Source: Pectobacterium brasiliense (lineage in GTDB: Bacteria; Pseudomonadota; Gammaproteobacteria; Enterobacterales; Enterobacteriaceae). Taken from it: a stretch of 64,000 bases of DNA. A model generated the notes under the pieces. It ran no database searches. It saw only the letters and a program-made list of their open reading frames with translations, and was not told the DNA's origin. Location: NCBI RefSeq assembly GCF_016950255.1, contig NZ_JACGFN010000001.1, positions 1,302,001 to 1,366,000 on the forward strand, written 5' to 3'. Made by a program: the position numbers and the translations under genes. The number at the start of each line of letters is the position of its first letter. Positions within the stretch are counted from its first letter, which is position 1. Below are positions 32,941-50,101 of the stretch, piece by piece.

Positions 32941-33020
32941 AGTTGTTCTCTTTTCTCCTTCCCGCACAGTCGCTTACCTGCAAGACAAGCAAATCAACTC
33001 GACGGCGGCAATAAAGTCAG

Positions 33021-33039: not shown

Positions 33040-33047
33040 TTGCGTAT

Positions 33048-33079
33048 CTACCCGATTCGAGCCGATTTCTACCCGAATC
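33048..33079 (-). promoter_or_regulatory. YbtA-type operator pair upstream of ybtP
   Basis: Two copies of the 11-mer GATWCGGGTAG (minus strand: GATTCGGGTAG at 33069-33079 and the variant GAATCGGGTAG at 33048-33058), start to start 21 bp, i.e. two helical turns. The same pair recurs at 34168-34199 and 35982-36013. A degenerate plus-strand copy (GGTACGGGTTA, 33080-33090) points towards the regulator gene. Confidence 0.7.
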
Positions 33080-33171
33080 GGTACGGGTTACCGTCATCAA
33101 CTGCGGTGCGATGATCGTCCAATTACCGGATCGTCCGATGTTCGCAACCCGTCTCTTCAGGAGCCTGTCCA

Positions 33172-34140: not shown

Positions 34141-34167
34141 TCGATCGCCAACGTCCCCGTTCATCCT

Positions 34168-34199
34168 GATACGGGTACAAATAGACTGGATTCGGGTAG
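34168..34199 (+). promoter_or_regulatory. YbtA-type operator pair upstream of the 140-residue protein and ybtX
   Basis: GATACGGGTAC (34168-34178) and GATTCGGGTAG (34189-34199), 21 bp start to start, same orientation as the downstream genes. Confidence 0.7.
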
Positions 34200-34211
34200 C
34201 GCCGCAACAGC

Positions 34212-34230
34212 GAATGATTATCATTTTCTC
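34212..34230 (+). promoter_or_regulatory. Fur box upstream of the 140-residue protein and ybtX
   Basis: GAATGATTATCATTTTCTC contains the 13-bp palindrome AATGATTATCATT (34213-34225), a strong Fur core, 24 bases upstream of the start codon. Confidence 0.7.
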
Positions 34231-34253
34231 CATAATAAGCCGGAGAAACCCCC

Positions 34254-34676
34254 ATGCCCGATTCCATTGCAACGCCACATCCTTTCCTTGATACAGACGC
34301 CTGGCCGGTGGTCTTCTTACACATGCCGGAACAGGTGCCCGATGATAAATCTGCGGGTTATATGGCGCAGATCGCTCAGCTGTATGCTGCGCAAGAACGC
34401 TTTGTTCTCTGTATGACGGGTGCCGACCTGCCCCATCGCTCCCCTGATTTTATGAATGCTTATCTTCAGTGGACGCGCGATAACGTCAGCCTACAACAGC
34501 AATACTGTGCGGGTGCGATTCGCATCGAAAGCGACGAAACCAAAAGACAAAAGTACGTGGAATGGGCGGAGAACTGGGCGCAGTCTGGGCAGGCGCCGTA
34601 TGCCTATTTTGTCGTCGCCACCTCGCTTGAAGCACAGGCGCTGGCGATAATGCTGCTGGATCGCGACAAACCATGA
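34254..34676 (+). CDS. Conserved protein of unknown function in the ybt-like operon
   Basis: 140 residues, soluble, no signal peptide or membrane segment. I do not recognise a family. Visible features are a hydrophobic beta-type stretch (WPVVFLHMPEQV, ERFVLCMTGADL), an acidic/aromatic middle (YLQWTRDNVSLQQQY, YVEWAENWAQSGQ) and a C-terminal helix. It starts 24 bases after a Fur box with a GGAG ribosome site and ends in a 4-base overlap with ybtX, so it is translated together with the transporter. No equivalent gene lies at this place in the Yersinia yersiniabactin island as I know it. A role in handling the siderophore or its iron is only an inference. Confidence 0.8.
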   Translation: MPDSIATPHPFLDTDAWPVVFLHMPEQVPDDKSAGYMAQIAQLYAAQERFVLCMTGADLPHRSPDFMNAYLQWTRDNVSLQQQYCAGAIRIESDETKRQKYVEWAENWAQSGQAPYAYFVVATSLEAQALAIMLLDRDKP

Positions 34677-35950
34677 CGCCCAATTCGATGACACGCTACC
34701 TGCCCTATTGGTGTTTCTACCTCCATCAGGGCATGATCACCGCACTCATTATGCAAGGCGTGGCAGGCTATTTTCGCCACGCGGGGTTGGATCTTGCGCA
34801 GCTAAGCTGGCTGTCGCTGACCTTTCTGCCATGGATTGCTAAATGCCTGTGGGCACCGTGGGGCGAGCGTCACGCGCTTCCTCTACGCGGTAATCCCTAT
34901 TTAGGCAGTCTGGTGCTGCTCCAGATCGCGATGGCAGCAACGCTGGTTGTGATTGGCGTCATCTCCCCCGAGCACTCTGTCCTGACTATCATCATGGCGC
35001 TGATGCTGTTGGCATTGCTCTCCGCCAGCCACGATATCTATGCCGACGGCATCACGATCTGCACCACCAGCGCCGCCAGTCGCGCGCTGGCGAATACCGC
35101 ACAGGTCGGCGGCAGCTATCTGGGTATTCTGTTCGGCTCTTATGCGTTCCTGAGTATTGCGGAACAGGCAGGATGGCAAGGCGGCTTCTTCGCACTGGCG
35201 GGGCTGTCGCTGCTGATGCTCATCTTGCCACTGCGCTATATCCAGCAGTCCCCTATTCAGCACAACCAGACTTTGGATCGTCAGAGTCCGGATCGTCAGA
35301 GTCAGAAATCCGCACGCCCAACGCTCAACTGTCTGACGTTTAAAGCGCTCTGGCCAGTATTAACCTTCACGGCCATTTTCTATCTGGCGATGCGCGGCAT
35401 GATGGCGCTACAGACCGTCATGCTGATCGACAGACAACTCAGCCTGAGCCAGTTGGGCATCGTCATGACCGTGTACAGCACCGCCGTCAGCGGCGTAGGG
35501 ATTATGCTCGCCAACGTCCTGATTCGCCGTATGGGCGCGCTGCGCTGTCTGTTGCCCGTCATGGTCGTGCACGCTCTGCTCGCCATTGTGCTAGCCGTCG
35601 GCTACCCGCTGTATTCATTGAACACCTGGATCGCGATCTTTGGCGTGGTCAATCTGGCTGCCGCAATCGGGTTTGTCACGCTATACAACGCCCTGATGGG
35701 CTTAGTCAGACCGCATCAGCCTGCTTCCGACTATGCGCTGTTTCAATCGACCGATGCGGCTGTCGCCATGATCGTGTCGATTGCTGCGCTCCAGTTAGCG
35801 CATCACACAAATTACCAGACCACGCTGGGCGTGCTGGCCTGCTTCGCCGTCGCCAGCCTGTGGCCTGCCAAACGGCTATCTGTACGGCTTTCCCGCGCGT
35901 TTTCTGACGGTGCTGCACCAGCGATCATAAGCCGGCAGGGACAGGATTAA
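34673..35950 (+). CDS. ybtX: YbtX-like MFS transporter
   Basis: 425 residues with about 12 hydrophobic segments and the opening YLPYWCFYLHQGMITALIMQGVAGYF typical of YbtX/RhtX-like siderophore-locus permeases. Yersinia YbtX sits in the yersiniabactin locus and has been linked to zinc acquisition rather than iron uptake. A short tandem repeat in the central cytoplasmic loop encodes DRQSPDRQSQ (12-bp unit GATCGTCAGAGT twice). Overlaps the preceding gene by 4 bases. Confidence 0.83.
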   Translation: MTPNSMTRYLPYWCFYLHQGMITALIMQGVAGYFRHAGLDLAQLSWLSLTFLPWIAKCLWAPWGERHALPLRGNPYLGSLVLLQIAMAATLVVIGVISPEHSVLTIIMALMLLALLSASHDIYADGITICTTSAASRALANTAQVGGSYLGILFGSYAFLSIAEQAGWQGGFFALAGLSLLMLILPLRYIQQSPIQHNQTLDRQSPDRQSQKSARPTLNCLTFKALWPVLTFTAIFYLAMRGMMALQTVMLIDRQLSLSQLGIVMTVYSTAVSGVGIMLANVLIRRMGALRCLLPVMVVHALLAIVLAVGYPLYSLNTWIAIFGVVNLAAAIGFVTLYNALMGLVRPHQPASDYALFQSTDAAVAMIVSIAALQLAHHTNYQTTLGVLACFAVASLWPAKRLSVRLSRAFSDGAAPAIISRQGQD

Positions 35951-35981
35951 CAAAACGGAAAAACGGGCAGGAAGCCTACTG

Positions 35982-36013
35982 TATTCGGGTTGAAATAGAC
36001 CCGATACGGGTAG
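35982..36013 (+). promoter_or_regulatory. YbtA-type operator pair upstream of the FyuA-like receptor
   Basis: TATTCGGGTTG (35982-35992) and GATACGGGTAG (36003-36013), again exactly 21 bp apart and upstream of a Fur box. Confidence 0.7.
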
Positions 36014-36025
36014 CTCAAAAAACGC

Positions 36026-36043
36026 AAACGATTATCATTTAAC
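36026..36043 (+). promoter_or_regulatory. Fur-like box upstream of the FyuA-like receptor
   Basis: AAACGATTATCATTTAAC carries the GATTATCATT core of Fur sites and lies just downstream of the operator pair, about 105 bases before the start codon. Confidence 0.6.
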
Positions 36044-36147
36044 TTTCATCGTTCTCTGTCTTACGCGCTTTTCGTACCGCAATAAAGCGTGACGTGATGA
36101 AAACCGTTGCCTTTGACATCGATTTTAGTCTTTTCAGGGATTTAATA

Positions 36148-38157
36148 ATGAAAATAACGCGTCTTTATCCGCTTGCCTTAACCGGCATATTTCTCTCTTC
36201 CTGTGCCTTTGCCGCTCAGGACGATACGCTTGTTGTCACCGCCAGCAAACAGTCGCCCTATTCCGCCTCGGCCAATAATGTCTCCTCCACCGTCGTGACG
36301 GCACCGGAGCTGAAAGATGCTGGCGTTACCAGCACTGACAAGCTGACCCGTGTGATGCCCGGCCTCAACCTCGGCAATAACGGTAGCCTGCTGTTCCCCT
36401 CCATCTCACTGCGCGGCGTGTCTTCCGCCCAGGATTTCTACAGCCCGGCGGTGACGGTCTACGTGGACGGTGTGCCACAACTCGCCACTAACACCGTACA
36501 GGCACTCTCCGATGTGGAAAGCATCGAAATGCTGCGAGGTCCGCAGGGAACGCTGTACGGTAAAAGCGCACAGGGTGGCATTATCAACATCGTGACTCAG
36601 CAGCCGGACAGCACGCCGCGTGGCTATGTAGAAGGCGGTGTCGCCAGCCGCGACGGCTATCACGGTAAAATCAACCTCAGCGGCCCCATTCAGGATGGCC
36701 TCCTGTATGGCAGCGTTACGCTGCTGCGTCAGGTCGATTCAGGCGCGATGACCAACCCCGCCACGGGCAGCGACAATCTCGGCGGTACAAAATCCAGCGT
36801 CGGGAATCTTCGACTGCGGTTGGCCCCTGAGGGTCAGCCGTGGGAAACCAGTCTGGCACTAACGGAAGACTGCACGCGCGCCACGCAGGATACCTATCTG
36901 CCGTTTGGCGATGCCAAAAACCGGACGCTGGAGATCGCTGCGGGCGCACCCGACCCGACATTGCGCCGCTGCACGCACAGCCAGTCGCTAAGCGGAAAAT
37001 ACACCACCGATAACTGGATCTTCAGCCTGATCGGTGCATGGCAGCAGCAGAATTACGACCGCACCTTCCCGAACGGTACGCTGATTGCCGATATGCCGGA
37101 GCGCTGGAATCAGGACGTGCAGGAACTGCGAGCCGCCACGCACGGCGCAGGCCGCGCGGTGGATATGGTATTCGGCCTTTACCGGCAGAACACGCGTCAG
37201 AAACTCGATCTGACCTACATCCAGGCAGGTTCTCCGTTTATGAAAAGCAATGCCAACACATCGTCGGAGACCTTAGCCGCCTACAGCGATCTGACCTGGC
37301 ATCTGACCGACCGCATCGATCTGGGCGGCGGGCTGCGCGTATCGCACGATAGAGCCGAAACCCGTTATCGCCAGCAGTTCTCCGGCATGAACGTGGGTGA
37401 CCGCAATAGCGTCGATGACGATCAGGTACTGGGACAACTCTCCGCCAGCTATCTGCTGAACAATGACTGGCGTGTCTATACCCGCGTCGCGCAGGGCTAC
37501 AAGCCAACGGGCTTTAACTATTCGCCTGCCGCTGGCACGCAGGCCATTCCGTATAGTGCAGAGAAATCGATTAACTATGAAATCGGCTCGCGCTATCAGA
37601 GTGGCGATGTGCAGCTTCAGGGCGCGGTGTTCCACACCCACACGCGTGATATGCAGCTATATTCCGGCCCGGTCGGTATGCAAACGCTCAGCAACGCAGG
37701 TAGCGCCGACGCCAGCGGCGTAGAAATGATGCTGAAGTGGCAGTTCGTTCCCAACTGGTCATGGGATATCAACGGCACCTATGTCCGCTCTGAATTCGCT
37801 GGCGACAGTGAGAGCTATCAGGATAAACGTGTACCTTTCGTCCCGCGCTACGGGGCTGGCACTAGCCTGAACGGACTGATCGACACCTCGTTCGGCGCGT
37901 TAATGCCGCGTCTGGCCTTCAACGTGGTAGGGCCGCACTACTTCGACGGCGATAACGCGTTGCGTCAGGGGACTTATACCACCACCGACCTGCGCCTCAG
38001 TTGGCAGGCCACCGCTCGGGTGAATATCGCCGGCTATGTGGATAACGTCTTCGACCGTCGCTACCGCACCTTTGGCTTTATGAGCGGTACATCGGGCTAC
38101 GCACAGGTCAACGAAGGCCGAACCGTTGGCGTGGACGTACGGGTTGACTTGTTCTGA
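36148..38157 (+). CDS. fyuA: TonB-dependent receptor, FyuA/Psn-like (yersiniabactin receptor)
   Basis: 669 residues, almost the length of Yersinia FyuA. Signal peptide ending near AFA, TonB box (DDTLVVTASKQ), plug domain (SISLRGVSSAQDFYSPAVTV, EMLRGPQGTLYGKSAQGG) and a beta barrel ending in VDVRVDLF. Long stretches match FyuA as I remember it (NIVTQQPDSTPRGY, GPIQDGLLYGSVTLLRQVD), so ferric yersiniabactin or a very similar siderophore is the expected substrate; the Yersinia protein is also the pesticin receptor. The ATG at 36148 follows CAGGGA; the earlier ATG at 36094 lies outside the signal peptide pattern. Confidence 0.92.
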   Translation: MKITRLYPLALTGIFLSSCAFAAQDDTLVVTASKQSPYSASANNVSSTVVTAPELKDAGVTSTDKLTRVMPGLNLGNNGSLLFPSISLRGVSSAQDFYSPAVTVYVDGVPQLATNTVQALSDVESIEMLRGPQGTLYGKSAQGGIINIVTQQPDSTPRGYVEGGVASRDGYHGKINLSGPIQDGLLYGSVTLLRQVDSGAMTNPATGSDNLGGTKSSVGNLRLRLAPEGQPWETSLALTEDCTRATQDTYLPFGDAKNRTLEIAAGAPDPTLRRCTHSQSLSGKYTTDNWIFSLIGAWQQQNYDRTFPNGTLIADMPERWNQDVQELRAATHGAGRAVDMVFGLYRQNTRQKLDLTYIQAGSPFMKSNANTSSETLAAYSDLTWHLTDRIDLGGGLRVSHDRAETRYRQQFSGMNVGDRNSVDDDQVLGQLSASYLLNNDWRVYTRVAQGYKPTGFNYSPAAGTQAIPYSAEKSINYEIGSRYQSGDVQLQGAVFHTHTRDMQLYSGPVGMQTLSNAGSADASGVEMMLKWQFVPNWSWDINGTYVRSEFAGDSESYQDKRVPFVPRYGAGTSLNGLIDTSFGALMPRLAFNVVGPHYFDGDNALRQGTYTTTDLRLSWQATARVNIAGYVDNVFDRRYRTFGFMSGTSGYAQVNEGRTVGVDVRVDLF

Positions 38158-38172
38158 TTCCTGTCGTTTTAT

Positions 38173-38215
38173 CGCGGCCTTTTAATCACATTACTATGTA
38201 GGTTAAAAGGCCGCG
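38173..38215. repeat. 13-bp perfect inverted repeat behind fyuA
   Basis: CGCGGCCTTTTAA (38173-38185) and TTAAAAGGCCGCG (38203-38215) with a 17-base loop, 15 bases after the fyuA stop. It has no T-run; it may still act as a 3' stabilising hairpin or terminator. Confidence 0.5.
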
Positions 38216-38389
38216 TCATGTGCCATTCCACCACCATTCTCTCTTACAATCCGTTACCGATTAGCCTTTCTCCTTTCACCAAAGTCATATTAATGACATC
38301 GCCGCTGCCCCATACTGGCTTATCACTGATTTATCATGCCTTGTTTTTCCCCGCTACTTAGCGCTTTCTGCGCCTGCTGGAGACCCGTC

Positions 38390-39145
38390 ATGAAACGTAA
38401 CACGATCTTGATCTTCACTGTTTCTGCCATCATTTTACTCACGGCCGCGGCAATAGGCTGGAAAGTTAGCCGAGGGAACAGCAATGCACTGTGGGAGATC
38501 GTCAGCGAACAATGCGTGCCCAATCAGCAGCGCAATGGTAATCCGGCTCCTTGTCTGGAAGTTAATCTGGCAGAGGGCTACGTGCTCTTCGATGACAGAA
38601 ACGGTCCCTATCACGACTTGTTGCTCCCAACGGATAAAATTAGCGGCATCGAAAGCCCTGAACTCTTGCAGCAAAACGTACCTAATTTCTTTATGCAGGC
38701 GTGGGATCGACGCGGCCATCTTTCACGTGAAGCGGGCAAACCGATCAAAGATGACTACCTCTCGCTGGCGATTAATTCACGCTATGGACGCACGCAAAAC
38801 CAACTGCATATCCACATTGCCTGCCTGCGCCCGGAAATTTATCAAACGTTGAATCAGCAATTCCCGACGCTCTCTGCCGACTGGAAAACGCTGCCGGTCA
38901 AAATCAACGGGCATACCTATCTGGCAAAAACGCTCACGGCGAACGAACTGACCCAAAGCGATCCGTTCAAAACACTCGATCGCTACGCCCAACAGCGGGA
39001 TGAATCTATCGGCAAATACGGACTCGCAATGGTCTCCACGCCAGCAGGCGAAAAGGTACTGCTCGCCAGCAGCCTTGACGTGTTCAATATGAGTCTCGGG
39101 TCCGTGGAAGAAATTCAGGATTTTTCCTGTGCGCTGGCAAAATAG
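38390..39145 (+). CDS. cdh: CDP-diacylglycerol pyrophosphatase
   Basis: 251 residues, the same length as E. coli Cdh. One N-terminal membrane helix (ILIFTVSAIILLTAAAIGW) anchors it; the catalytic region has the HIT-like histidine motif QLHIHIACL plus the family segment LWEIVSEQCVPNQ. It hydrolyses CDP-diacylglycerol to phosphatidate and CMP at the inner membrane. The start at 38390 matches the E. coli start; the frame is open 18 codons upstream. Confidence 0.93.
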   Translation: MKRNTILIFTVSAIILLTAAAIGWKVSRGNSNALWEIVSEQCVPNQQRNGNPAPCLEVNLAEGYVLFDDRNGPYHDLLLPTDKISGIESPELLQQNVPNFFMQAWDRRGHLSREAGKPIKDDYLSLAINSRYGRTQNQLHIHIACLRPEIYQTLNQQFPTLSADWKTLPVKINGHTYLAKTLTANELTQSDPFKTLDRYAQQRDESIGKYGLAMVSTPAGEKVLLASSLDVFNMSLGSVEEIQDFSCALAK

Positions 39146-39272
39146 CCGCTGACCGCGCCAGACGGCGGCCTGCGTGCGCTGAAGCTCTATAGCAATCAAT
39201 TTGCTATAACTTATGACTTTTTGTTCATTGCGTTGCCGGCCGACCTCCGCCTAAAAAGTGGGGAAAATCGAT

Positions 39273-40229
39273 ATGTTAGGTAGCTGCAACATGCATCTGG
39301 ATTTACGGCAATTACGCAATTTTCTTGCACTGGCCGAACATGGTAGTTTTGTACAAGCCGCAGAGGCCGTCTGCCTGTCGCAATCGGCATTCAGCCGCAG
39401 CATTCAGGCGCTGGAACAAACAATGGGGCATCCGCTTATCGACCGCCAGAGCCGCCGTTTTGCACTGACGTGGCAGGGTAATACGCTGCTGCCGTTTGCG
39501 CGGCGTATGCAGGAGCTGTCGTGGGAATTGATGACCGACATGCGGCAAATCAGCGAGGCACAAGAAGGCGAACTCACATTTGGCTGCGGCCCCGCACCGT
39601 CGACCACGCTGATCCCCAAAGCGGTCGCGCATTTCCATGCCCTTCGTCCGCGCGCCAGAGTCACCTACAGTGTGGATAACTGGCAGTCCCTGCGTGAGCG
39701 GCTGCTGGCCGATGAGTGGCCTTTTATCGTTGCCGACACCTGGCAGGCCGAAATGGAAACCAACCTCCACGTACAGCCATTAAGCCAGCAGCGCTGCTTC
39801 TTTATCTGCCACTCTTCACACCCGCTGGCGCAGCAGGCAAACGTGACGCCGGACGATCTCCTGCGCTTTCCGCTCGCTTCCCCCTTTATGCCCGTTGGTA
39901 TGCGCAAGGTGCTGGCGGCGTTAACGCGCCAGCCCGATTATCGACCACAGATTCAGTGTGACCATATCTATTCCGTCTTCAGCATCCTGCGGCATACGCA
40001 GGCCATCAGCTTCGCCAGCGAGGATGGCTTTGCGCTGGGGCGATTAAGCCATCAGTTGGTAGAAATTCCGCTGACGGGCACGCCGCCGGAATGGGGAAAT
40101 ATGCAAACCCGCTTCGGTATCGTCACCTGTTTGCAAAGAACGCTGCCACCGCTGGCTGAGTTGATGATCGAAAGCATACTGGCGCAGGACAGGCTGCGCT
40201 CACCGGCTCCGGCACTGCCGACCCTGTGA
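39273..40229 (+). CDS. LysR-family transcriptional regulator
   Basis: 318 residues: a winged helix-turn-helix at the N-terminus (LRQLRNFLALAEHGSFVQAAEAVCLSQSAFSRSIQALE) and a LysR substrate-binding domain. Its location beside a sulfonate/sulfate-ester-type transporter suggests it controls that system, but it is not of obvious CysB/Cbl type (different helix-turn-helix). The start at 39273 is preferred for its GGGGA upstream; ATG at 39291 is an alternative. It is convergent with the binding-protein gene (12 bases). Confidence 0.85.
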   Translation: MLGSCNMHLDLRQLRNFLALAEHGSFVQAAEAVCLSQSAFSRSIQALEQTMGHPLIDRQSRRFALTWQGNTLLPFARRMQELSWELMTDMRQISEAQEGELTFGCGPAPSTTLIPKAVAHFHALRPRARVTYSVDNWQSLRERLLADEWPFIVADTWQAEMETNLHVQPLSQQRCFFICHSSHPLAQQANVTPDDLLRFPLASPFMPVGMRKVLAALTRQPDYRPQIQCDHIYSVFSILRHTQAISFASEDGFALGRLSHQLVEIPLTGTPPEWGNMQTRFGIVTCLQRTLPPLAELMIESILAQDRLRSPAPALPTL

Positions 40230-40241
40230 GCGCATTCGTGA

Positions 40242-41378
40242 TTATTTCGTGGGATTACCGCTAGCGTCATATACCGCCCAGTTCGATTCCAGCCCTTTGG
40301 CTTTCAGCGCCCTATCAACAAACTGGCCGGCAAACCAGTCGCTGGCCGAGAATGTGTTGCGAATCAGCCCGGCTGCTTTCGCCCGCTCGATACTGTCCTG
40401 CAAGCTGCTGAGCAGGAACGGATCGAGACGCGGCGAGCTTTGGAAAGGGAGATCTTCCGCTTTCAGCTCTTCCTGAAAAATCGCCTGCGGAATCTGACTC
40501 TGTTCGGCCATTAGCGCGGTGTATTCCGGCAGGTGCTGCGCATCGCCGATCCACTGCGCATTGTCCACCAGCACATTCACCAGTTGCTGCGTCGTGCCCG
40601 GATAACGGTCGATAAAGTCCTGCGTCGCCAGCACGGCAGCCTGTGTGGTGTTCGGCCAGCCCAGCGCCCGGCTGGTGGTCACAATATTAATGCCCTGTTT
40701 ACGCAACGCCAGCAGAGAGACGCCGCCCCACACCGCATCCACGCGTCTGGCCGCCAGCGCCGCTTTGCCTGCCGTCCAGTCAAGATTGATCACCCGTACG
40801 TCCCGCTCGTTCAGCCCGACGCTTTTAATCGCGCGCTCAAACGACAGCTGATCGGCCGTTCCCTTGTAGACTGCAATCCGCTTACCGCGTAAATCTTCAA
40901 TGCGTTGAATACCCGATTCCGGCGTCGCCGCCAGATAAGAATTAGAGCCGCGCGATCCCACCAGCACCCGCGTCGGCAATCCCCCCGCCCGACCAATAAT
41001 GGCCGCCAGATCGCCCAAATACACCACATCCAACTGCTTGTTTGCCAGCGCCTCATTCACCGCCGGGCCCGCGCCTTTAAAGAACGACCACTGAATCTTG
41101 ATGCCCTGCGGCTCAAATTCTTTCTCCAGTTGTTTTTGAATATGTGCCAACCCCAGCGGCCCGCGGATAAAAGGCTTGCTGCCTGCGCTCTGATCCGGCA
41201 AACCAATGCGAATCTCCGTCGGCTTTTGTGCATCCTGCGGTGCGTCGTCGTTTGCCTGAACGGTGGAAACGAGTGCCGCACCCATCAGCAAGGCAGTACT
41301 TAACACCTTCATCCCCCTGCGCCAGCGGGAAGATGCCGTTATCGGCGAGGCAGTGAACAACAGGGTGGTTTGTTGCAT
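40242..41378 (-). CDS. ABC transporter periplasmic binding protein (SsuA/AtsR-like)
   Basis: 378 residues with an N-terminal export signal (VLSTALLMGAALVSTVQA) and the type II binding-protein fold of the nitrate/sulfonate/taurine family (IRIGLPDQSAG, GAGPAVNEALANKQLDVVYLGD, GKRIAVYKGTADQLSFERA). Likely ligands are alkane- or aryl-sulfonates or sulfate esters. It is divergent from the permease-ATPase-sulfotransferase operon; the 237-base spacer between them should hold both promoters. Start 41378 is preceded by AAGGA. Confidence 0.87.
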   Translation of the reverse strand: MQQTTLLFTASPITASSRWRRGMKVLSTALLMGAALVSTVQANDDAPQDAQKPTEIRIGLPDQSAGSKPFIRGPLGLAHIQKQLEKEFEPQGIKIQWSFFKGAGPAVNEALANKQLDVVYLGDLAAIIGRAGGLPTRVLVGSRGSNSYLAATPESGIQRIEDLRGKRIAVYKGTADQLSFERAIKSVGLNERDVRVINLDWTAGKAALAARRVDAVWGGVSLLALRKQGINIVTTSRALGWPNTTQAAVLATQDFIDRYPGTTQQLVNVLVDNAQWIGDAQHLPEYTALMAEQSQIPQAIFQEELKAEDLPFQSSPRLDPFLLSSLQDSIERAKAAGLIRNTFSASDWFAGQFVDRALKAKGLESNWAVYDASGNPTK

Positions 41379-41615
41379 ACGGTTTTCCTTAATAATCCAT
41401 TTCATCTGCCATGAAACTAGCGAACCGTCGACATCAGGCTTAAATAACATTTACAGGTTTGCTCAGCGGAAAAAAGCATAAATCAGGGGTGACGGGCTCG
41501 AGCCACGCATATGCATTTCTTGCACGGCGACCATCGCTTTATTGCATTGGCGTTCAACGTCGAAACCTGTTTTTTATTCCCTATTCATCCAGCTGCGATG
41601 GTTTTCGGGAATAAA

Positions 41616-43220
41616 ATGAATAAGCCGATACTGCTGAAAAAAAACGCGATCGTCTGGCCTGCACTGCCGATAGCACGAGCCTATTCTCTTGTCATGCCAA
41701 TACTTGTGGTGCCACTCATCGTGCCGCTGGCGCTGCTGGCCCTGTGGTATATCAGCACCCACTACGGTTGGATGCCCGCTCAGATTCTCCCGGCTCCCGA
41801 TGTCGTCGCTAACACCGCCGTCGAACTCTGGCACAACGATCTCCTGCCGCAGCTCTTTATCAGCCTGCAACGGTTGGCGAGCGGCCTGCTGGCAGGCGTT
41901 CTGGCGGGAACGCTGCTTGGTGCGCTGATGGGCGCCTCGCGCCGCGCCGAACATCTGCTGCACCCGACGGTATACGCGCTGGCACAAATTCCAACGCTGG
42001 GCTGGATCCCGCTGTTTATGGTGCTGTTCGGGATTGATGACGGTTTAAAACTCGCGGTCATCATCAAGGCCGTGATTATCCCTGTGACGCTGCATACGCA
42101 AACGGGCGTGCGTAACGTGCCGCATGCGCTACAGGAAGTCGCTCGCACTCTGCGCCTGCCGTGGCATCAGCGTCTCATCAAATTAACGCTGCCCGCCGCG
42201 CTCCCCACCTGGTTAACCGGCTTACGGCTGGCGCTCTCGCAGGCGTGGGTGTCGCTGATTGTGGTCGAACTGCTGGCGTCATCTCAGGGCATTGGTTACC
42301 TGCTGGTATGGGGACGTCAGCTGTTTCAGTTGGATATTGTATTTGTCTGCATCGCCGTGATTGGGCTGGCGGGGCTGGCTATGGAGTGGGCAATCAATCG
42401 GCTGGAACGCCGTCTGGTCTTCTGGCCACATCCACCGCTCAGTCGCTTAACTACCGCACCGTCTCGTCGTTTATCCGCTTTGGTTTTACCTTTTCTGCTT
42501 CTGCTGCTCTGGCAACAGGCCAGCCGTTTTGGCTGGATAGACCCGCTGTTGCTGCCACCGCCCGCTGATGTATGGCACATGCTGCTGCAAGGCATCCGTG
42601 ACGGTTCGCTCACCGAGGCGATGCAGGCCAGCCTGACCCGAGCGCTTGCCGGTGCAGTATGCGGCATTATTGCGGGGCTCGTGTGCGGTGTGCTGCTGGG
42701 GCTGAATGCCACCAGCGATGCCCTCTTTACACCTACGGTCGCGACGCTGCGCCAGATCGCGCTGTTTGCCTGGCTGCCGCTGCTGACCGCTTGGGTCGGC
42801 AACGATGAAGTCGGGAAAATCACGTTTGTGGCGCTGGCCTCATTCTTTCCCATGCTGGTGGCCAGCCATCGCGGTATCCGCCAGCGTTCTCAGGCTTTAC
42901 AGGAAGTCGCACAGGTGTTGCAACTCCGTCTCTGGACACGCCTGCGGGTGCTGATCCTGCCGGGTGCCGCTCCCGCAATCTTTGCCGGTTTACGTCTGTC
43001 GCTGATTTACGCCTGGCTTGGCACCATCGGTGCGGAATATTTCATGTCATCCGGCACCGGGATCGGCAGCCTGATGATCAACGCTCAGCAGCTACTGGAT
43101 ATGCCCTTGATTATCAGCGGCATGCTGTTGATTGGATTAACGGGCGCGGTGCTCGATCGCGTCGGATTAGGTCTGGAACAGCGGATGACACGCTGGCGTT
43201 CCGCAGGAGAAATCGCATGA
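41616..43220 (+). CDS. ABC transporter permease, two permease domains fused
   Basis: 534 residues, twice the size of SsuC/TauC. Both halves carry six-helix permease domains with the EAA-type loop for the ATPase (first: EVARTLRLPWHQRLIKLTLPAALP; second: EVAQVLQLRLWTRLRVLILPGAAP). A fused permease is a feature I associate with AtsB of the Pseudomonas sulfate-ester transporter. The start at 41616 follows GGGA; upstream ATGs at 41511 and 41598 have no ribosome site. It overlaps the ATPase gene by 4 bases. Confidence 0.85.
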   Translation: MNKPILLKKNAIVWPALPIARAYSLVMPILVVPLIVPLALLALWYISTHYGWMPAQILPAPDVVANTAVELWHNDLLPQLFISLQRLASGLLAGVLAGTLLGALMGASRRAEHLLHPTVYALAQIPTLGWIPLFMVLFGIDDGLKLAVIIKAVIIPVTLHTQTGVRNVPHALQEVARTLRLPWHQRLIKLTLPAALPTWLTGLRLALSQAWVSLIVVELLASSQGIGYLLVWGRQLFQLDIVFVCIAVIGLAGLAMEWAINRLERRLVFWPHPPLSRLTTAPSRRLSALVLPFLLLLLWQQASRFGWIDPLLLPPPADVWHMLLQGIRDGSLTEAMQASLTRALAGAVCGIIAGLVCGVLLGLNATSDALFTPTVATLRQIALFAWLPLLTAWVGNDEVGKITFVALASFFPMLVASHRGIRQRSQALQEVAQVLQLRLWTRLRVLILPGAAPAIFAGLRLSLIYAWLGTIGAEYFMSSGTGIGSLMINAQQLLDMPLIISGMLLIGLTGAVLDRVGLGLEQRMTRWRSAGEIA

Positions 43221-44023
43221 CATCCACAACTCTTGACGTATCACCGCCGGTGGTGCAGTTCGATCGACTTCGTAAACAGTTTCGCGTACAGGGCGAGGCG
43301 TTAACGGTGATTGATGATTTTTCCCTGTCGATCCACAGCGGTGAACTGGTGGCGATTGTTGGCAGCAGCGGCTGCGGTAAATCCACGCTCTTGCGTATGC
43401 TGGTCGGTCTGGACAACGACTATCAGGGACGCGTGCTGGTCGAAGGGAAAACCGTGCGCGGCATCGGACGTGAGCGCGGCATGGTGTTTCAGGAACCGCG
43501 CCTGTTTCCGTGGCTGACGGTGCGGCAAAACATCGCGCTCGGGCTGGCAAATGAAGCCATCGACGAAAAAGAGCGGAAGCGTCTGATCGACCACTTTATC
43601 CAGCTCGTGCATTTGCAGGATTTTGCCGATGCCCTGCCCGCCCAGCTTTCCGGCGGCATGGCGCAGCGAGTGGCTATCGCACGTGGGCTCGTCGCCAATC
43701 CACGCATCCTGATGCTGGACGAGCCTTTTGGCGCATTGGATGCGTTGACCCGTCAACAGATGCAACAGGAGCTGCGCCGCATCCATCAGGCGGAGGGCAC
43801 CACTACGCTGCTGGTGACGCACGACGTCGAGGAAGCCGTCTATCTCGCCGATCGCGTCGTCGTGCTGGCACCGCGACCGGGACGTATCCGCCAGATTGCG
43901 ACAATTTCGCTGCCGCATCCGCGCCAACGTGACAGTCAGGCCTTCCACCAACAGTGCAGCGATTTGCTCGCCTTGCTGACGCAGCCCGCCGATACGGCGG
44001 CTCTCTCTTCTCTGAACACGTAA
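43217..44023 (+). CDS. ABC transporter ATPase (SsuB/TauB/AtsC-like)
   Basis: 268 residues with Walker A (GSSGCGKST), Q-loop (MVFQEPRLFPWLTV), signature (LSGGMAQR) and Walker B (ILMLDEPFGALD), the pattern of nitrate/sulfonate/taurine ATPases. It powers the fused permease. Translation is coupled to the permease by an ATGA overlap and the sulfotransferase-like gene follows after 16 bases. Confidence 0.9.
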   Translation: MTSTTLDVSPPVVQFDRLRKQFRVQGEALTVIDDFSLSIHSGELVAIVGSSGCGKSTLLRMLVGLDNDYQGRVLVEGKTVRGIGRERGMVFQEPRLFPWLTVRQNIALGLANEAIDEKERKRLIDHFIQLVHLQDFADALPAQLSGGMAQRVAIARGLVANPRILMLDEPFGALDALTRQQMQQELRRIHQAEGTTTLLVTHDVEEAVYLADRVVVLAPRPGRIRQIATISLPHPRQRDSQAFHQQCSDLLALLTQPADTAALSSLNT

Positions 44024-44039
44024 ATACTGGAGCACCATT

Positions 44040-45833
44040 ATGGGACACCCTTCCGTCTACCCGACCGGCACAACGATTTACAACCCGGAAAAAGCCTGGG
44101 GCGGCTACACCGTCTTTCAGGCACTGGAACGTGGCGCGGTACTGGTGGATATGAACGGCACCGAACTGCGCCTGTGGGAAGGCCTGCACGGCTTCCCCAA
44201 TAAAATCCTGCCCGGCGGTTATATCCTCGGACACAGCGGTGAACGCGATTCGCGCTACGGCATGCAGGACATGGTCGATCTGATTCAGATCGACTGGGAC
44301 GGCAACGTCGTGTGGAAATTCAACGGCTATGAGCACATTACCGATCCCGATCTTCCGCCTGAATGGATGGCGCGCGTCCATCATGACTACCAGCGCAGCG
44401 GCAATCCGGTCGGCTATTATGCACCGGGACAAGAGCCGCAGTCGATTGGCGGCAACACGCTACTGCTGGCGCATACCAACCTACACAATGAACGCATTAG
44501 CGACAAACTGCTGCTCGACGACACCATCATCGAAGTGGACTGGGAGGGCAACATCTTGTGGGAATGGCGTTGCAGCGACCATTTCGACGAGCTGGGCTTT
44601 GACGACGATGCGAAAACCGCACTGTACAACAATCCTAACCTGCGCAAAAGCGGCGGCGGCATGGGCGACTGGATGCACATCAACTCCATGTCGGCACTCG
44701 GCCCCAATCCGTGGTTCGATCAGGGCGATACCCGTTTTCACCCGGATAACATCATCTGGGACGCCCGCGAATCCAACATAATCGCCATCATCGACAAGCA
44801 AAGCGGCAATATCGTCTGGCAGCTTGGCCCCAACTACAACACACCTGAACTCAAACACATCGGCTGGATTATCGGCCAGCATCACGCGCATATGATCCCC
44901 GCAGGCTTGCCGGGCGCGGGCAATATTCTGGTGTTTGATAACGGTGGCTGGGCAGGCTACGGCGCGCCCAATCCGGCATCAGCCGACGGTGTGAAAAACG
45001 CCTGGCGTGACTATTCCCGCGTGCTGGAAATCAACCCGATAACGCTGGATATTGTCTGGCGCTATTCGCCGTACGAAGCGGGCATCCCCCATCCAACCGA
45101 CGCCTTCCGTTTTTACAGCCCGTACATCAGTAATATCCAGCGCCTGCCAAACGGCAATACGCTGATTAACGAAGGCGCCAACGGCAGACTCTTTGAAGTC
45201 ACCGTCGATCACGAGATTGTCTGGGAGTTTATTTCCCCCTACTGGGGCAAAACGGTGAACACCAACATGCTGTATCGCGCCTACCGCGTGCCCTACGAGT
45301 GGGTACCACAGCTGTCGCGTCCACAGGAAACGCCGGTGATCGCCCCCGACAACACTCAGCTACGTCAACCGGGAGCCGCCGCCCCCGGCTTCGCCAGCGT
45401 CATTCGTATTGAGGGCACGCGCCCCTACAAAAAGAGCGGCGATGCCCTGTGCGTCGCGACTGACAGCGAAGACCTCAAGCGCAGCCCGAAACTCTTTGCC
45501 GTCAACCGTGAGCGTTTTGCTCCACTGACCGCCGACGACTGGCCTGAACTGGCAGCCCAACAAGGTCCACAGTTGCTGCTGGTCGGCGCAGAGCGCTGTG
45601 TCCACTGCAAGAGCCTCTACCGCCAGTTAGAAGCGATTCTGGATAACGAGGAATACCGCAACTTGCCGAGCCATTATCTGGATGCCGATCATCACATTGC
45701 CCTCGCGGAGCAATTGGCGGTCAGGACGCTACCGACCCTGCTATGGCTCGTCAGTGGTGAAGAACAGGCTCGCCTGAGCGGTGCACAGCAGCCCGAACGC
45801 CTGCGCCAGTGGCTCACCGAGCAACAGATTTAA
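44040..45833 (+). CDS. Arylsulfotransferase-like protein fused to a thioredoxin-like domain
   Basis: 597 residues, no signal peptide, so cytoplasmic. Residues ~1-450 are a beta-propeller of the arylsulfotransferase type with repeated W-D-G-N blades (DWDGNVVWKFNG, DWEGNILWEWR) and active-site-like His213-x-Asn215 (DWMHINSM) and His281/282/284 (GQHHAHMIP) before VFDNGG. These enzymes move sulfate from one phenol to another without PAPS. Residues ~485-597 resemble a thioredoxin fold with a CVHC pair (Cys520, Cys523) and a cis-proline motif (VRTLPTLLWL). I know of no described fusion of this kind. It follows the ABC ATPase by 16 bases, so it likely acts on an imported sulfur compound. Confidence 0.8.
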   Translation: MGHPSVYPTGTTIYNPEKAWGGYTVFQALERGAVLVDMNGTELRLWEGLHGFPNKILPGGYILGHSGERDSRYGMQDMVDLIQIDWDGNVVWKFNGYEHITDPDLPPEWMARVHHDYQRSGNPVGYYAPGQEPQSIGGNTLLLAHTNLHNERISDKLLLDDTIIEVDWEGNILWEWRCSDHFDELGFDDDAKTALYNNPNLRKSGGGMGDWMHINSMSALGPNPWFDQGDTRFHPDNIIWDARESNIIAIIDKQSGNIVWQLGPNYNTPELKHIGWIIGQHHAHMIPAGLPGAGNILVFDNGGWAGYGAPNPASADGVKNAWRDYSRVLEINPITLDIVWRYSPYEAGIPHPTDAFRFYSPYISNIQRLPNGNTLINEGANGRLFEVTVDHEIVWEFISPYWGKTVNTNMLYRAYRVPYEWVPQLSRPQETPVIAPDNTQLRQPGAAAPGFASVIRIEGTRPYKKSGDALCVATDSEDLKRSPKLFAVNRERFAPLTADDWPELAAQQGPQLLLVGAERCVHCKSLYRQLEAILDNEEYRNLPSHYLDADHHIALAEQLAVRTLPTLLWLVSGEEQARLSGAQQPERLRQWLTEQQI

Positions 45834-45847
45834 CTCTCACACCTTGA

Positions 45848-45876
45848 ACGCGATCTCGCTCCCAGTGAGATCGCGT
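45848..45876 (+). terminator. Hairpin behind the sulfotransferase-like gene
   Basis: Perfect 10-bp stem ACGCGATCTC / GAGATCGCGT with a 9-base loop, 14 bases after the stop codon. It is followed by CGTTACTTTCATTT, which is not a clean T-run, so its strength as a terminator is uncertain. Confidence 0.45.
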
Positions 45877-46007
45877 CGTTACTTTCATTTCTCACTTTTC
45901 TTGTGTACATCCTTCCATATCGACGCAGTCTTCCTCCGCACTTCTTCCCTGCCCGTATCCGCCTCTTTTACCATTGCCTACAGATTATTCAGGGACGGAA
46001 AAACAGC

Positions 46008-46904
46008 ATGGCCGCGCATGATGCGATTTTTAAACAGTTTCTCAGCGATCCCGCTGTCGCAAAGGATTTCTTCGCCATTCATCTGCCAGAAGAAATCAGG
46101 AATATCTGCGATTTCAGCTCGCTACAACTGCAATCGGCCTCTTTTGTAGACGAGGAACTACGCGCAAGAATATCGGATATGCTGTATTCAATTCAGACCA
46201 CCGCAGGGCAAGGCTATATCTATTGTGTGATTGAGCATCAGAGTCGCCCAGAAAAACTGATGCCATTTCGCCTGCTGCGCTACGCGCTGGCTGCTATGCA
46301 ACAGCACCTCTCTCAAGGTCACGACACTTTGCCGCTCGTCGTTCCTTTACTGTTTTATCACGGCCAGCGTAGCCCTTATCCCTATACGCTGCGTTGGCTC
46401 GACGGTTTTACCGACGCTATTCAGGCAGAAAAACTCTACAATTCATCCTTTCCTTTGATTGACCTAACGGTAATCCAAGATGAGGAAATCAAGACGCATC
46501 GCCGCGTAGCGCTACTGGAGTTAGTACAAAAACACATTCGCACGCGAGATATGCTGGAACTGGCGCAGGATATCGGGCTATTATTTGAGCGCTGGCAGGT
46601 GCCACTACCGCAAAAAAGAGCGATTCTGTTTTACATCGCGCGGAGCGGCAATACATCAAGGCCGGCAGAGTTTATTGAGACGGTTGCGCAGTCTCTGTCA
46701 ACGGATCGGGAGGCGATCATGACCATCGCACAGCAGCTTGAGAAAATCGGGTTTGAAAAAGGCATCAAACAAGGTATGAAAGCCAGTGCTCGACACATTG
46801 CTCGTCAGCTTCTGCTTAGCGGCATGGAACCTGCTCAGGTCAGCCAGATTACTCAGTTGAGCGCGACGGAACTGGCACAGCTTGTTGACTCATCGAACGA
46901 GTAG
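46008..46904 (+). CDS. Rpn-family recombination-promoting nuclease (transposase_31 type)
   Basis: 298 residues starting AAHDAIFKQFL, the PD-(D/E)XK-type N-terminus of RpnA/YhgA proteins, with the catalytic-type segment IYCVIEHQSRPEKLMPFRLLRYALA and a lysine-rich C-terminal helical region (EKIGFEKGIKQGMKASAR). E. coli Rpn proteins are nucleases that raise RecA-independent recombination; earlier they were annotated as transposases. There are no inverted repeats or target duplications beside it, so it is not an insertion sequence. The start at 46008 fits the family and has GGACGG upstream. Confidence 0.9.
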   Translation: MAAHDAIFKQFLSDPAVAKDFFAIHLPEEIRNICDFSSLQLQSASFVDEELRARISDMLYSIQTTAGQGYIYCVIEHQSRPEKLMPFRLLRYALAAMQQHLSQGHDTLPLVVPLLFYHGQRSPYPYTLRWLDGFTDAIQAEKLYNSSFPLIDLTVIQDEEIKTHRRVALLELVQKHIRTRDMLELAQDIGLLFERWQVPLPQKRAILFYIARSGNTSRPAEFIETVAQSLSTDREAIMTIAQQLEKIGFEKGIKQGMKASARHIARQLLLSGMEPAQVSQITQLSATELAQLVDSSNE

Positions 46905-47059: not shown

Positions 47060-47077
47060 TTATGTTATTACATATCG
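47060..47077 (+). promoter_or_regulatory. Zur-like box before the metallophore-type ABC operon
   Basis: The core ATGTTATTACAT (47062-47073) matches 11 of 12 positions of the Zur palindrome ATGTTATAACAT known from enterobacteria. It lies 30 bases upstream of the chosen start (47104). Zinc repression of the following operon is inferred. Confidence 0.55.
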
Positions 47078-47103
47078 ATTTACACTGCCCCTATACGTTA
47101 TCT

Positions 47104-47937
47104 ATGATTAACCGGAACAGACACACAGACGCCATTCTTCAGGTAGAAAACCTGAGCCTGTCCATGGGCGGTGAAACCAAAGTCAGCGATATCAGCTTTA
47201 CGCTGTTCGCGGGTGAACGTGTCTGTTTACTCGGGGCGTCCGGTTCTGGTAAATCCCTCACCGCCAAAGCCGTAATCGGCACACCGCCGTCGGGCTGCCA
47301 GATTCGTGGCAGTATTCGGGTGAATGACGAAGAGGTTGGTCAGTTGAAAGCGCTGGCACGCCCATCGGTTAGCCGCGTTTCTGCCGTGTTCCAGGACTCG
47401 GCAACGGCGCTCAATCCCCTCATGCCGTTGGGAAAACAGCTGTCACTGGCGTTGAAAACCACCTCTTCCGCTGAACTTTCTGCGCTTCTGGCTGCGATGA
47501 AGCTGGATGATATCCCCAACCTACTGCAGCGTTATCCTGCCGAACTGTCCGGCGGTCAGCGTCAGCGCATTTGCATTACCCTTGCATTGCTCGGCAAGAC
47601 GCGCCTACTGGTAGCAGACGAACCCACCACCGCGCTCGATGTCATGACCCAGCAGCAGGTATTGACGGTCTTACAGGAACGTAGCACGCAGCCGGATGCT
47701 CCGGCCCTACTGTTTATTACGCATGATATCGCCGTTGCCGCCCAGCTCTGCCAGCGTGGTCTGGTGATGGAAAACGGCCAGATCGTTGAATCCGGCAGCA
47801 TGCAGCAACTACTGAATGCACCACAGCAGCCCTATACCCGTAGTCTGGTCGCTGCCGCGCGTCGCGCTGACACGCTTTTATCTGACACTCTATTATCCGA
47901 CAGGATGTTACCTGCTGCCGGAGCACTCGCCGGATGA
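47104..47937 (+). CDS. ABC transporter ATPase, DppD/NikD/CntD-like
   Basis: 277 residues with Walker A (GASGSGKS), signature (LSGGQRQR), Walker B (LLVADEPTTALD) and the C-terminal region of the oligopeptide/nickel ATPases (APQQPYTRSL). It is one of two ATPases for the fused permease further downstream. The start at 47104 is chosen because an earlier ATG at 47062 falls within the Zur-like box. The C-terminus contains a small duplication (LLSDTLLSD). Overlaps the next gene by 4 bases. Confidence 0.87.
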   Translation: MINRNRHTDAILQVENLSLSMGGETKVSDISFTLFAGERVCLLGASGSGKSLTAKAVIGTPPSGCQIRGSIRVNDEEVGQLKALARPSVSRVSAVFQDSATALNPLMPLGKQLSLALKTTSSAELSALLAAMKLDDIPNLLQRYPAELSGGQRQRICITLALLGKTRLLVADEPTTALDVMTQQQVLTVLQERSTQPDAPALLFITHDIAVAAQLCQRGLVMENGQIVESGSMQQLLNAPQQPYTRSLVAAARRADTLLSDTLLSDRMLPAAGALAG

Positions 47938-48770
47938 ACCACCACCTGCATGCGGTTCCCTCACCGTTTTTAAGTCTTGAGCACGTTAGCCGCTATCGCC
48001 AGACGCCACGTTTGCCGTGGCAAAAGGCCGATCCCGCCAGTGCGATTTTTCACGACCTGTCGCTAAACCTGCAACAGTACGAACGCGTCGGGCTGGTTGG
48101 TGCGTCCGGCTGTGGTAAATCCACGCTGCTAAAAACCCTGCTCGCGCTTGAAGCGCCGGAGCGTGGCGCGGTGTACTGCGACGGCAACCTGATTACGCCC
48201 GGTTCGGTGCGTTCGCTGCTCTGGTATCGCCGCCGCGTTCAGTACATTCCGCAGGATCCGGCAGGCTCGCTCGCGCCGCGTCAGCGCGTCGCCGATCTCC
48301 TCATAGAGCCATTGAAGCGACTCCGCCCCGATGAAGTCCGCCACGCTAATGGAAATCATTCTGCCCGACTGGGCGATGTCATGGATCAGGTAGGACTGAG
48401 CGTCACGCTTCTGGATAAGGTCGCCGGACAGCTTTCCGGAGGACAGGCACAACGCGTTGCGCTGGCGCGAGCGCTGATCGTTAGACCCGAGTTTTTATTG
48501 GCAGACGAGCCCGTCAGCGGCCTGGACTTGCCGCTGCGCGAACAGATTAAAACCCTGCTTCAACAGATTACCGAACAAAACAAGATGGGCTTGCTGATGG
48601 TCTCGCACGACATTTCCATGCTCGCCGGGCTATGCGACAGAATGCTGGTCATGGACGGCGGACGCATTATTGAAGATCGCCCTACAACCGAGGTGCTGGC
48701 TTCGCCGCAGCAGGCGCACACCGCCCGTCTGTTGCAGGCCGTTCCCGCCCTATCGACGTCGGGCTATTAG
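47934..48770 (+). CDS. ABC transporter ATPase, DppF/NikE/CntF-like
   Basis: 278 residues: Walker A (GASGCGKST), signature (LSGGQAQR), Walker B (FLLADEPVSGLD) and the conserved VQYIPQDPAGSLAPRQRV of this family. It should pair with the preceding ATPase. Starts in an ATGA overlap and is followed by the MFS gene after 83 bases. Confidence 0.88.
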   Translation: MNHHLHAVPSPFLSLEHVSRYRQTPRLPWQKADPASAIFHDLSLNLQQYERVGLVGASGCGKSTLLKTLLALEAPERGAVYCDGNLITPGSVRSLLWYRRRVQYIPQDPAGSLAPRQRVADLLIEPLKRLRPDEVRHANGNHSARLGDVMDQVGLSVTLLDKVAGQLSGGQAQRVALARALIVRPEFLLADEPVSGLDLPLREQIKTLLQQITEQNKMGLLMVSHDISMLAGLCDRMLVMDGGRIIEDRPTTEVLASPQQAHTARLLQAVPALSTSGY

Positions 48771-48853
48771 CTCGCTGAAAACACGCTTTTTACCATAAAA
48801 TATCGCATCAATAACACATTCCCCGTAACGGGCTTTTTATAACGGATCATGAC

Positions 48854-50101
48854 ATGTCAGACCTTACCGCCAACCGCGCCCCACGGCCTTATCCCCCGTT
48901 ACTTCTGGGTAGCCAGCTGGTTTTCAACATTGGCTTTTATGCCGTCGTGCCGTTTCTGGCCATTTTCCTGCGTGACGATATGCTGCTTTCCGGCTGGGCC
49001 ATCGGGCTGGTGATTGGCTTACGAACCTTTTCTCAGCAGGGCATGTTTTTAGTCGGCGGTGCGCTGGCCGATCGCTTTGGTGCGCGCGTGATCATCCTGT
49101 GCGGCTGCGTCGTGCGTATCAGCGGCTATCTCCTGCTGGCCTTAGGCGACTCACTGTGGCCGATCATCCTTGGTGCCTGTCTGACCGGTGTCGGCGGTGC
49201 TCTGTTCTCCCCCGCGATTGAAGCGCTGATGGCACAGGCCGGTACGCAAAGTGAAAAAGAGGGAAAACGCAGCCGCTCCGAGTGGTTCGCCCTGTTTGCC
49301 ATTTGCGGCGAGTTAGGCGCGGTGCTGGGGCCGTTGCTCGGTTCGGTACTGGCGGGATACGGATTCCAGCGCGTGGCGCTAGCCGGTGCGGGCGTGTTTG
49401 TTATCGCACTCATCGTCCTGTTTTTCAGCCTGCCGCCAACGCAGCGTAATCGGGGAGAATTACAGATTGCCCCGTGGTGGGAAACGTTCCGCCAGCGCCG
49501 TTTTGTCGCGTTCATCATTGCCTACAGCGCTTACCTGTTCAGCTACAACCAGCTCTATCTGGCGCTGCCGGTTGAACTGCATCGCTCCGGCAGCAGCGAG
49601 AAAGATCTCGGTCCGCTATTTGTCCTCGCTTCACTGCTGGTGATCGGATTGCAGCTCCCGCTGGCGCGTTTTGCCCGCCGGGTTGGCGCGGCACGCATGC
49701 TGCCACTGGGCTTTGCGCTGCTAGCTGCATCGTTCTTTAGTGTCGCGCTGTTTGCTTCCAGCACGCCACCTGAAGGCTGGCAGCGTCTACTTCCCGCTAT
49801 CTCGTTAATTACGCTGCTGACGCTGGGGCAGATGCTGATCGTTCCCGTCGGGATGGACCTTATCCCGCGCTTTGCCAACAACCAGAATTTGGGGGCGCAC
49901 TACGGCGCGCTGGCGTCGATGGGTGGCATCGCCGTTCTGGTTGGCAACTTTATCCTCGGCAGCCAGCTTGACCGCGCGCTGACGCCGTCACCGCAGGCCG
50001 CCATTCCGTGGGTGCTGCTCGCCGCCGTGCCGTTGTGCAGTTCGCTGGCGATGATGGTCATCTGCCGCCCGTTTAAATCCGCTCCAACCGTGAATGAATA
50101 A
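48854..50101 (+). CDS. MFS transporter in the metallophore-type operon (CntE-like)
   Basis: 415 residues, about 12 membrane helices, with MFS motif A (GGALADRFGARVIIL). Its place between the ATPases and the binding protein recalls the cnt operon of staphylococci, where the MFS protein CntE exports the opine metallophore staphylopine. No nicotianamine-like synthase or opine dehydrogenase genes are visible here, so if it is an exporter the metallophore would be made elsewhere. It could equally export another compound. The stop is 10 bases before the binding-protein start. Confidence 0.82.
   Translation: MSDLTANRAPRPYPPLLLGSQLVFNIGFYAVVPFLAIFLRDDMLLSGWAIGLVIGLRTFSQQGMFLVGGALADRFGARVIILCGCVVRISGYLLLALGDSLWPIILGACLTGVGGALFSPAIEALMAQAGTQSEKEGKRSRSEWFALFAICGELGAVLGPLLGSVLAGYGFQRVALAGAGVFVIALIVLFFSLPPTQRNRGELQIAPWWETFRQRRFVAFIIAYSAYLFSYNQLYLALPVELHRSGSSEKDLGPLFVLASLLVIGLQLPLARFARRVGAARMLPLGFALLAASFFSVALFASSTPPEGWQRLLPAISLITLLTLGQMLIVPVGMDLIPRFANNQNLGAHYGALASMGGIAVLVGNFILGSQLDRALTPSPQAAIPWVLLAAVPLCSSLAMMVICRPFKSAPTVNE

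Follow-up and report, generated by a model that had tools for sequence, protein, structure and literature searches.

A predicted cytoplasmic arylsulfotransferase-thioredoxin fusion encoded with an SsuA-type importer in Pectobacterium brasiliense: a candidate route from sulfate esters to sulfite

The described enzymes closest to the one considered here, an arylsulfotransferase (AST) fused to a thioredoxin domain and encoded in an operon of Pectobacterium brasiliense, are the propeller sulfotransferases Cpz4 and AssT. The operon lies in a stretch of 64,000 nucleotides (contig NZ_JACGFN010000001.1, positions 1,302,001 to 1,366,000), the whole of which we call the window. Cpz4, the caprazamycin sulfotransferase (PDB 9kf4, 9kf6), was the top structural match of the AST propeller, with a similar fold and ~20% identity; it works in antibiotic synthesis with a sugar hydroxyl as the favoured acceptor (PMC13426309). 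AssT of uropathogenic Escherichia coli (PDB 3elq, 3ets; locus L102) has a signal-like start and adjoins two open reading frames (ORFs) that by eye resemble DsbL and DsbI, whereas the window AST has no such start, carries its thioredoxin in the same chain and, in relatives, has reductants as partners; nothing in it corresponds to AssT residues before 117. No Dsb protein was found among the eight genes scanned at window positions 36094-46904.

The SsuABC and AtsRBC importers share with the window an SsuA-like binding protein, SsuC/TauC-like permease halves and an ATPase; they pair with SsuD or AtsK, whereas the window importer pairs with AST-thioredoxin. A parallel to the chemistry proposed below is found in CysH, the reductase of 3'-phosphoadenosine 5'-phosphosulfate (PAPS), in which the sulfuryl group passes to a cysteine in a mobile C-terminal tail, from which thioredoxin then frees sulfite. 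PF01507, the CysH domain, was not matched in the window genes scanned (E 0.001). The likeness to CysH with thioredoxin (entry 2o8v) is one of logic, not of descent, as the donor there is PAPS and here would be a sulfate ester. PMC4079955 names atsR and astB as genes of sulfate-ester transport in its set of host-interaction factors predicted for Pectobacterium and Dickeya; the labels, used for P. carotovorum genes, could not be tied to window coordinates. IsrBHDK of Rhodobacter capsulatus, an isethionate reductase set, likewise releases sulfite anaerobically from an imported organosulfur compound, for assimilation (PMC11423573); unlike the AST route proposed here, it acts on a sulfonate by nitrogenase-like and radical SAM chemistry.

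We propose, with a probability of roughly 0.6, that the operon serves to take up an organic sulfate ester, whose ester sulfate AST-thioredoxin turns into sulfite. What we observed is a conserved active site, a protein of cytoplasmic form, no conserved cysteine pair in the propeller, dithiol reductants fused to the AST or encoded beside it, and sulfite reductase genes at three loci. The strongest support comes from relatives and not from the window itself, the unfused ones having 61-69% identity to the window propeller (best 80 of 171). No such AST-thioredoxin and sulfite system was described in the titles and abstract beginnings of the papers listed by searches of open-licence literature, outside which most subscription journals lie; the words thioredoxin and sulfite were absent from the main text of PMC13426309.

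The fusion protein and its operon

A scan of genome contigs found 171 relatives of the AST, of which the best 80 were analysed: 33 from Enterobacterales (with the frameshifted L055 among them), nine other fused forms (among which we count L087 of Kluyvera) and 38 unfused forms. Residue counts refer to an alignment of 72 sequences, the window's and 71 of the 80, with nine near-identical Pectobacterium rows excluded. AssT residue numbers are those of the precursor minus 27, and the wrong-frame rows L018 and L021 were disregarded in the alignment with AssT. All features are on the + strand.

44040-45833: AST-thioredoxin gene (PF05935 and PF00085), starting 16 bp past the ATPase gene; propeller at residues 1 to ~445, flexible tail at ~446-482, thioredoxin domain at ~490-597
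44382-44384: His115, aligned with AssT His252; 72 of 72
44676-44678: His213, aligned with AssT His356; 72 of 72
44766-44768: Arg243, aligned with AssT Arg374; 72 of 72
44880-44882: His281, aligned with AssT His436; 72 of 72
45450-45452: Cys471 in the disordered C-terminal tail, near-invariant; 70 of 72
45597-45608: CVHC motif (Cys520-Cys523) of the thioredoxin domain; both cysteines in all 33 fused sequences of the 72

The propeller fold of AssT and Cpz4 and a thioredoxin fold with CxxC were both present; PF05935 matched residues 138-383 with 81.2 bits (cut-off 24.2), and PF00085 matched residues 496-593 with 34.9 bits (cut-off 23.5). Asn215 aligned with AssT Asn358. AssT His436 is the proposed sulfuryl-carrying residue, and His252, His356 and Arg374 are further residues of the AssT active site; an H436N form of AssT appears in the titles of the structure entries matched. 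A first-pass annotation of the window, which gave the same numbers for His213, His281, His282, His284, Cys520 and Cys523, had let its reading hang on this active site, and the site was retained in all 72 sequences and in the alignment with AssT. Judged from sequence, it is intact, and sulfuryl transfer from aryl sulfates is predicted. The open frame upstream of the AST start adds just 8 codons (605 versus 597 amino acids) and therefore lacks room for a signal peptide; fewer than 15 open codons preceded the start in 56 of the 72 sequences, and the remaining 16 were inspected by eye. AST-thioredoxin is thus predicted to be cytoplasmic, as the annotation had it.

The window propeller (residues 1-440) has a single cysteine, Cys178, which was present in 56 of the 72 sequences; considered as a sulfuryl acceptor, it is missing from the other 16. 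No conserved propeller cysteine pair on which an oxidase could act was found in the alignment. Cys471 was present in 47 of 48 sequences once near copies were removed, in fused and unfused forms alike, the exceptions among the 72 being L091 and the frameshifted L055. In the predicted structure the tail around it, residues 465-482, had a predicted local distance difference test score (pLDDT) below 50.

Scans of ORFs and protein families confirmed the operon as first described, with all five genes where they had been placed. The four that accompany the AST gene are as follows.

39258-40229, + strand: LysR-type regulator (PF00126 and PF03466 over cut-offs), convergent with the binding-protein gene
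40242-41450, - strand: SsuA-family periplasmic substrate-binding protein (TIGR01728, SsuA structure match)
41511-43220, + strand: fused two-domain ATP-binding cassette (ABC) permease; two BPD_transp_1 stretches, 148.4 bits
43217-44023, + strand: ABC ATPase (PF00005, 123.1 bits), overlapping the permease gene by 4 bp

The binding protein matched TIGR01728 (SsuA aliphatic sulfonate binding) with 136.5 bits, under the curated cut-off of 163.5, and the SsuA structure 3uif with E 7.8e-31, which favours an SsuA-type importer; by eye, its true start is likely at ~41312, just before MKVLSTALLMGAALVSTVQA, a signal-peptide-like stretch. The permease and ATPase scored 264.8 and 233.4 bits against SaoP and SaoA, under the cut-offs of 295 and 360, and the curated SsuC cut-off likewise was not reached. 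Transport of a thiamine precursor was weakened as a candidate, the NMT1/THI5 Pfam matches being generic and the SsuA family the better fit; no thiamine gene was found among the eight genes scanned. By tblastn, genes for LysR, binding protein, permease and ATPase lay near the AST in all 33 Enterobacterales loci, and the order LysR>, <binding protein, permease>, ATPase>, AST-thioredoxin> recurred in Pectobacterium, Brenneria, Samsonia, Yersinia, Klebsiella, Raoultella, Kluyvera and Enterobacter. The closest named loci for the AST among the best 80 were in P. brasiliense (98%) and P. versatile (97%). In L055 (2444-8704, Kluyvera genomosp. 3) the LysR, permease and AST genes are each split in two.

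Thiol partners and sulfite genes in relatives

The fusion is widespread and not local to the window: it also occurs elsewhere in Enterobacterales and in Pasteurellaceae, Bacillota and Fusobacteriota, and in a tree from which L055 was excluded it changed state at least twice. PF05935 was matched in 24 of the 25 genomes of the genus (its own included); outside the genus distribution was patchy, and for the family 15 of 295 genomes held the full-length fusion. In class scans, 11 of the 391 genomes around Blautia had the AST, as did 27 of the 398 around Enterococcus. Eleven later flank stretches were drawn from 10 of the 11 Blautia-side genomes (the eleventh being that of L073) and from genome G096. 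In Calothrix, Methylosinus and Acidisoma, three remoter homologues with 36-39% identity have signal-like starts and end with the propeller; the two at 27-28% (Pantoea, Alloyangia) do not appear to be exported. Another enterobacterial AST type, with 38-47% identity, was seen at L017, L019, L020 and G087:C1:1591534-1592829; in the first three it begins with a signal-like stretch and lacks an equivalent of Cys471.

A dedicated glutaredoxin-like gene was found by tblastn at 19 of the 38 unfused loci, some of which also hold the lipoyl carrier GcvH, LipA/LipB and lipoamide dehydrogenase; tblastn counts were used because the first gene caller had missed the gene at the high-GC loci L083 and L084. 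One unfused locus has a free thioredoxin, and thioredoxin reductase adjoins several fused forms. The glutaredoxin-like protein (E 1e-25) occurred in 20 of 305 genomes, all 20 of which have the AST (E 1e-100); the AST of G409 is broken. At L061:6125-6967 and in its relatives, a glutaredoxin-like protein is fused to a radical-SAM-like barrel that has no CxxxCxxC motif. Beside some Paenibacillus ASTs lie a reverse transcriptase of a group II intron and two proteins that matched no family. The first-pass annotation had the built-in redox domain replacing DsbL/DsbI, but we rejected a built-in DsbL, because the propeller has no conserved cysteine pair and the neighbours in other genomes (thioredoxin reductase, lipoamide dehydrogenase, glutaredoxin) act as reductants. 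For the same two reasons the thioredoxin domain most likely supplies electrons or a thiol; the suggested import and thiol chemistry tied to sulfuryl chemistry is supported.

Sulfite reductase genes lie beside the AST at three loci, as AsrABC twice and as an AsrC-like gene once. L087 (Kluyvera intermedia) reads NhaC-like carrier, thioredoxin reductase, AST-thioredoxin, AsrA, AsrB and AsrC, with scores of 537.2, 409.6 and 496.5 against NCBIfam equivalog cut-offs of 323.15, 288.6 and 324.1, respectively. L138, in genome G096, has the reductase, AST-thioredoxin and AsrABC, its Asr proteins 83-90% like those of L087. At L133 lie an ABC importer, the AST, an enzyme resembling O-acetylhomoserine sulfhydrylase, an NIR_SIR protein of AsrC-like type, TusA and thioredoxin, a run that by its predicted functions would make a nearly whole assimilation route, with the sulfhydrylase-like and AsrC-like proteins scoring under NCBIfam cut-offs. 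A YeiH-family exporter was found at L069 and L071. NIR_SIR, a family that also covers nitrite reductases, was matched in 16 of 17 genomes, the L069 genome being the one without. The importers beside ASTs were SsuABC-like ABC, DASS (a label that in the locus counts includes the NhaC/ArcD-type query), TTT, TRAP, NhaC-like and aromatic-acid MFS carriers, all types fitting organic anions; at L099 an alkyl-sulfatase-domain protein adjoins the AST, a hint of sulfate esters.

The proposed route and its alternatives

In the route we propose, the SsuA-type binding protein, fused permease and ATPase would, to judge by their families, bring an anionic ester into the cytoplasm, where His281 of the conserved site would, by analogy with AssT, accept the sulfuryl group as the alcohol or phenol leaves. 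The acceptor would then be a protein thiol, not an alcohol: Cys471 in most members, or directly Cys520, the nucleophile of the thioredoxin domain, giving Cys-S-SO3-. Attack by the thioredoxin thiols would free sulfite and leave a disulfide; cellular thioredoxin reductase and NADPH would reset the enzyme, and the sulfite would go to sulfite reductase. In relatives the thiol donor may be a separate protein, either a thioredoxin on its own or a glutaredoxin-like protein working with lipoyl-GcvH and lipoamide dehydrogenase, with reduction presumably paid by NADPH or NADH. The net reaction would be R-O-SO3- + 2 e- -> R-OH + sulfite, and would use no ATP sulfurylase, adenosine 5'-phosphosulfate (APS) kinase or PAPS.

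Several findings weigh against this route. Adjacency of sulfite reductase genes is rare, at one of the 80 loci (L087) and two of the 11 later stretches (AsrC-like at L133, and L138), and YeiH occurs at just two of the 80, that of L071 scoring 197 bits against a cut-off of 232.6. None of the redox, Asr and YeiH queries had a match at the 33 Enterobacterales loci, the 13 Paenibacillus and Bacillus loci gave no match to the thiol-gene queries used, and 19 of the 38 unfused loci showed no glutaredoxin-like gene by tblastn; AST without a glutaredoxin-like match occurred in 1 of 10 and 3 of 14 genomes, and because the counted genomes are akin, the p values for co-occurrence overstate independence. 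The Pantoea and Alloyangia ASTs also adjoin transporters, with no annotated thiol gene adjacent, so that a link to transport is not confined to the thiol forms. Finally, Cys471 was present in 7 of the 11 later sequences and missing from L134-L136, divergent fused forms with thioredoxin reductase, and from unfused L137, as from L091; the tail cysteine is therefore not the acceptor everywhere, and we rejected it as a universal one.

It is unlikely that the protein is an ordinary Cpz4-like cytoplasmic arylsulfotransferase with an alcohol or phenol as acceptor, in which the thioredoxin domain merely regulates or stabilises, although Cpz4, its top structural match, is a sulfotransferase and known ASTs use phenols and alcohols of many kinds as acceptors (PMC13426309 and PMC11576661). 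No biosynthetic or acceptor-forming genes were recognised beside the AST among the genes scanned, and the propeller offers no cysteine pair to regulate; a purely regulatory role for the thiols is disfavoured because dedicated redox partners of unrelated families and the sulfite reductases at three loci would stay unexplained. We give less credence again to desulfonation, in which the AST and thiols would cut the C-S bond of an imported sulfonate to yield sulfite, as the SsuA-type transporter and the TTT, TRAP and DASS importers, often sulfonate carriers, might suggest. The AST of L131 (3444-14649) also lies amid NifH-like, nitrogenase-component-like and two variant radical SAM genes, a setting similar to the isethionate reductase genes (PMC11423573). 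However, L131 thereby holds its own candidate C-S enzyme, the active site is of the sulfate-ester type, and the L099 neighbour is an alkyl-sulfatase-domain protein. For histidine to attack a sulfur whose leaving group is carbon is, moreover, chemically unfavourable. The sulfated or sulfonated substrate of the first-pass annotation is thus likelier a sulfate ester and less likely a sulfonate, and nothing observed points specifically to the plant compound it had suggested.

Reduction of an S-sulfonate (a Bunte salt, S-sulfocysteine or a thiosulfate-like compound; R-S-SO3- -> R-SH + sulfite) would fit sulfite and dithiol partners, but thioredoxins can reduce such compounds unaided by a propeller, and the arylsulfate site would be superfluous; we hold this to be improbable, more so than desulfonation. 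The lowest standing goes to a hydrolytic sulfatase releasing sulfate, with redox neighbours incidental: water would be the simplest acceptor, yet all 20 of the genomes with the glutaredoxin-like protein have the AST, and the thioredoxin fusion has changed state at least twice. The same genome, moreover, has six other PF00884 genes, some of which may be sulfatases.

Flanking features and biological meaning

45848-45876, + strand: terminator-like hairpin of 13 pairs, 3' of the AST gene, by pattern match

This hairpin is a possible operon end; 10 such sites were found across the stretch against 5.9 expected, and a promoter scan was uninformative (4 sites against 3.2 expected). Directly past the operon, 45903-46904 encodes an Rpn/YhgA-like recombination-promoting nuclease (PF04754) that is short or missing in several related loci; 47062-50101 holds, by eye, two Dpp/Opp-looking ATPases and an MFS-like gene, also downstream in several Pectobacterium and Brenneria loci. 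At 29330-38157 lie two tandem ABC exporter-type genes, an AraC-like regulator, an MFS-like gene and a TonB siderophore receptor (by eye except the receptor), a set resembling yersiniabactin-type uptake.

Returning to the reduction of sulfate esters to sulfite, the proposal supplies an acceptor, a protein thiol, and a product, sulfite, for one cross-phylum AST clade, and also suggests a role for the lipoyl/glutaredoxin cassette in sulfate reducers. There may be an even chance that thiol-driven reduction without ATP or PAPS is a further route beside hydrolysis and oxidation, run by a cytoplasmic AST clade with swappable dithiol partners and serving assimilation in facultative bacteria and electron acceptance in anaerobes with AsrABC or dissimilatory sulfite reductase. 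If true, sulfate esters would be reducible without sulfate activation, which would shift the energy balance of sulfate-ester use in gut, soil and sediment anaerobes and would give soft-rot bacteria a cheap source of sulfur.

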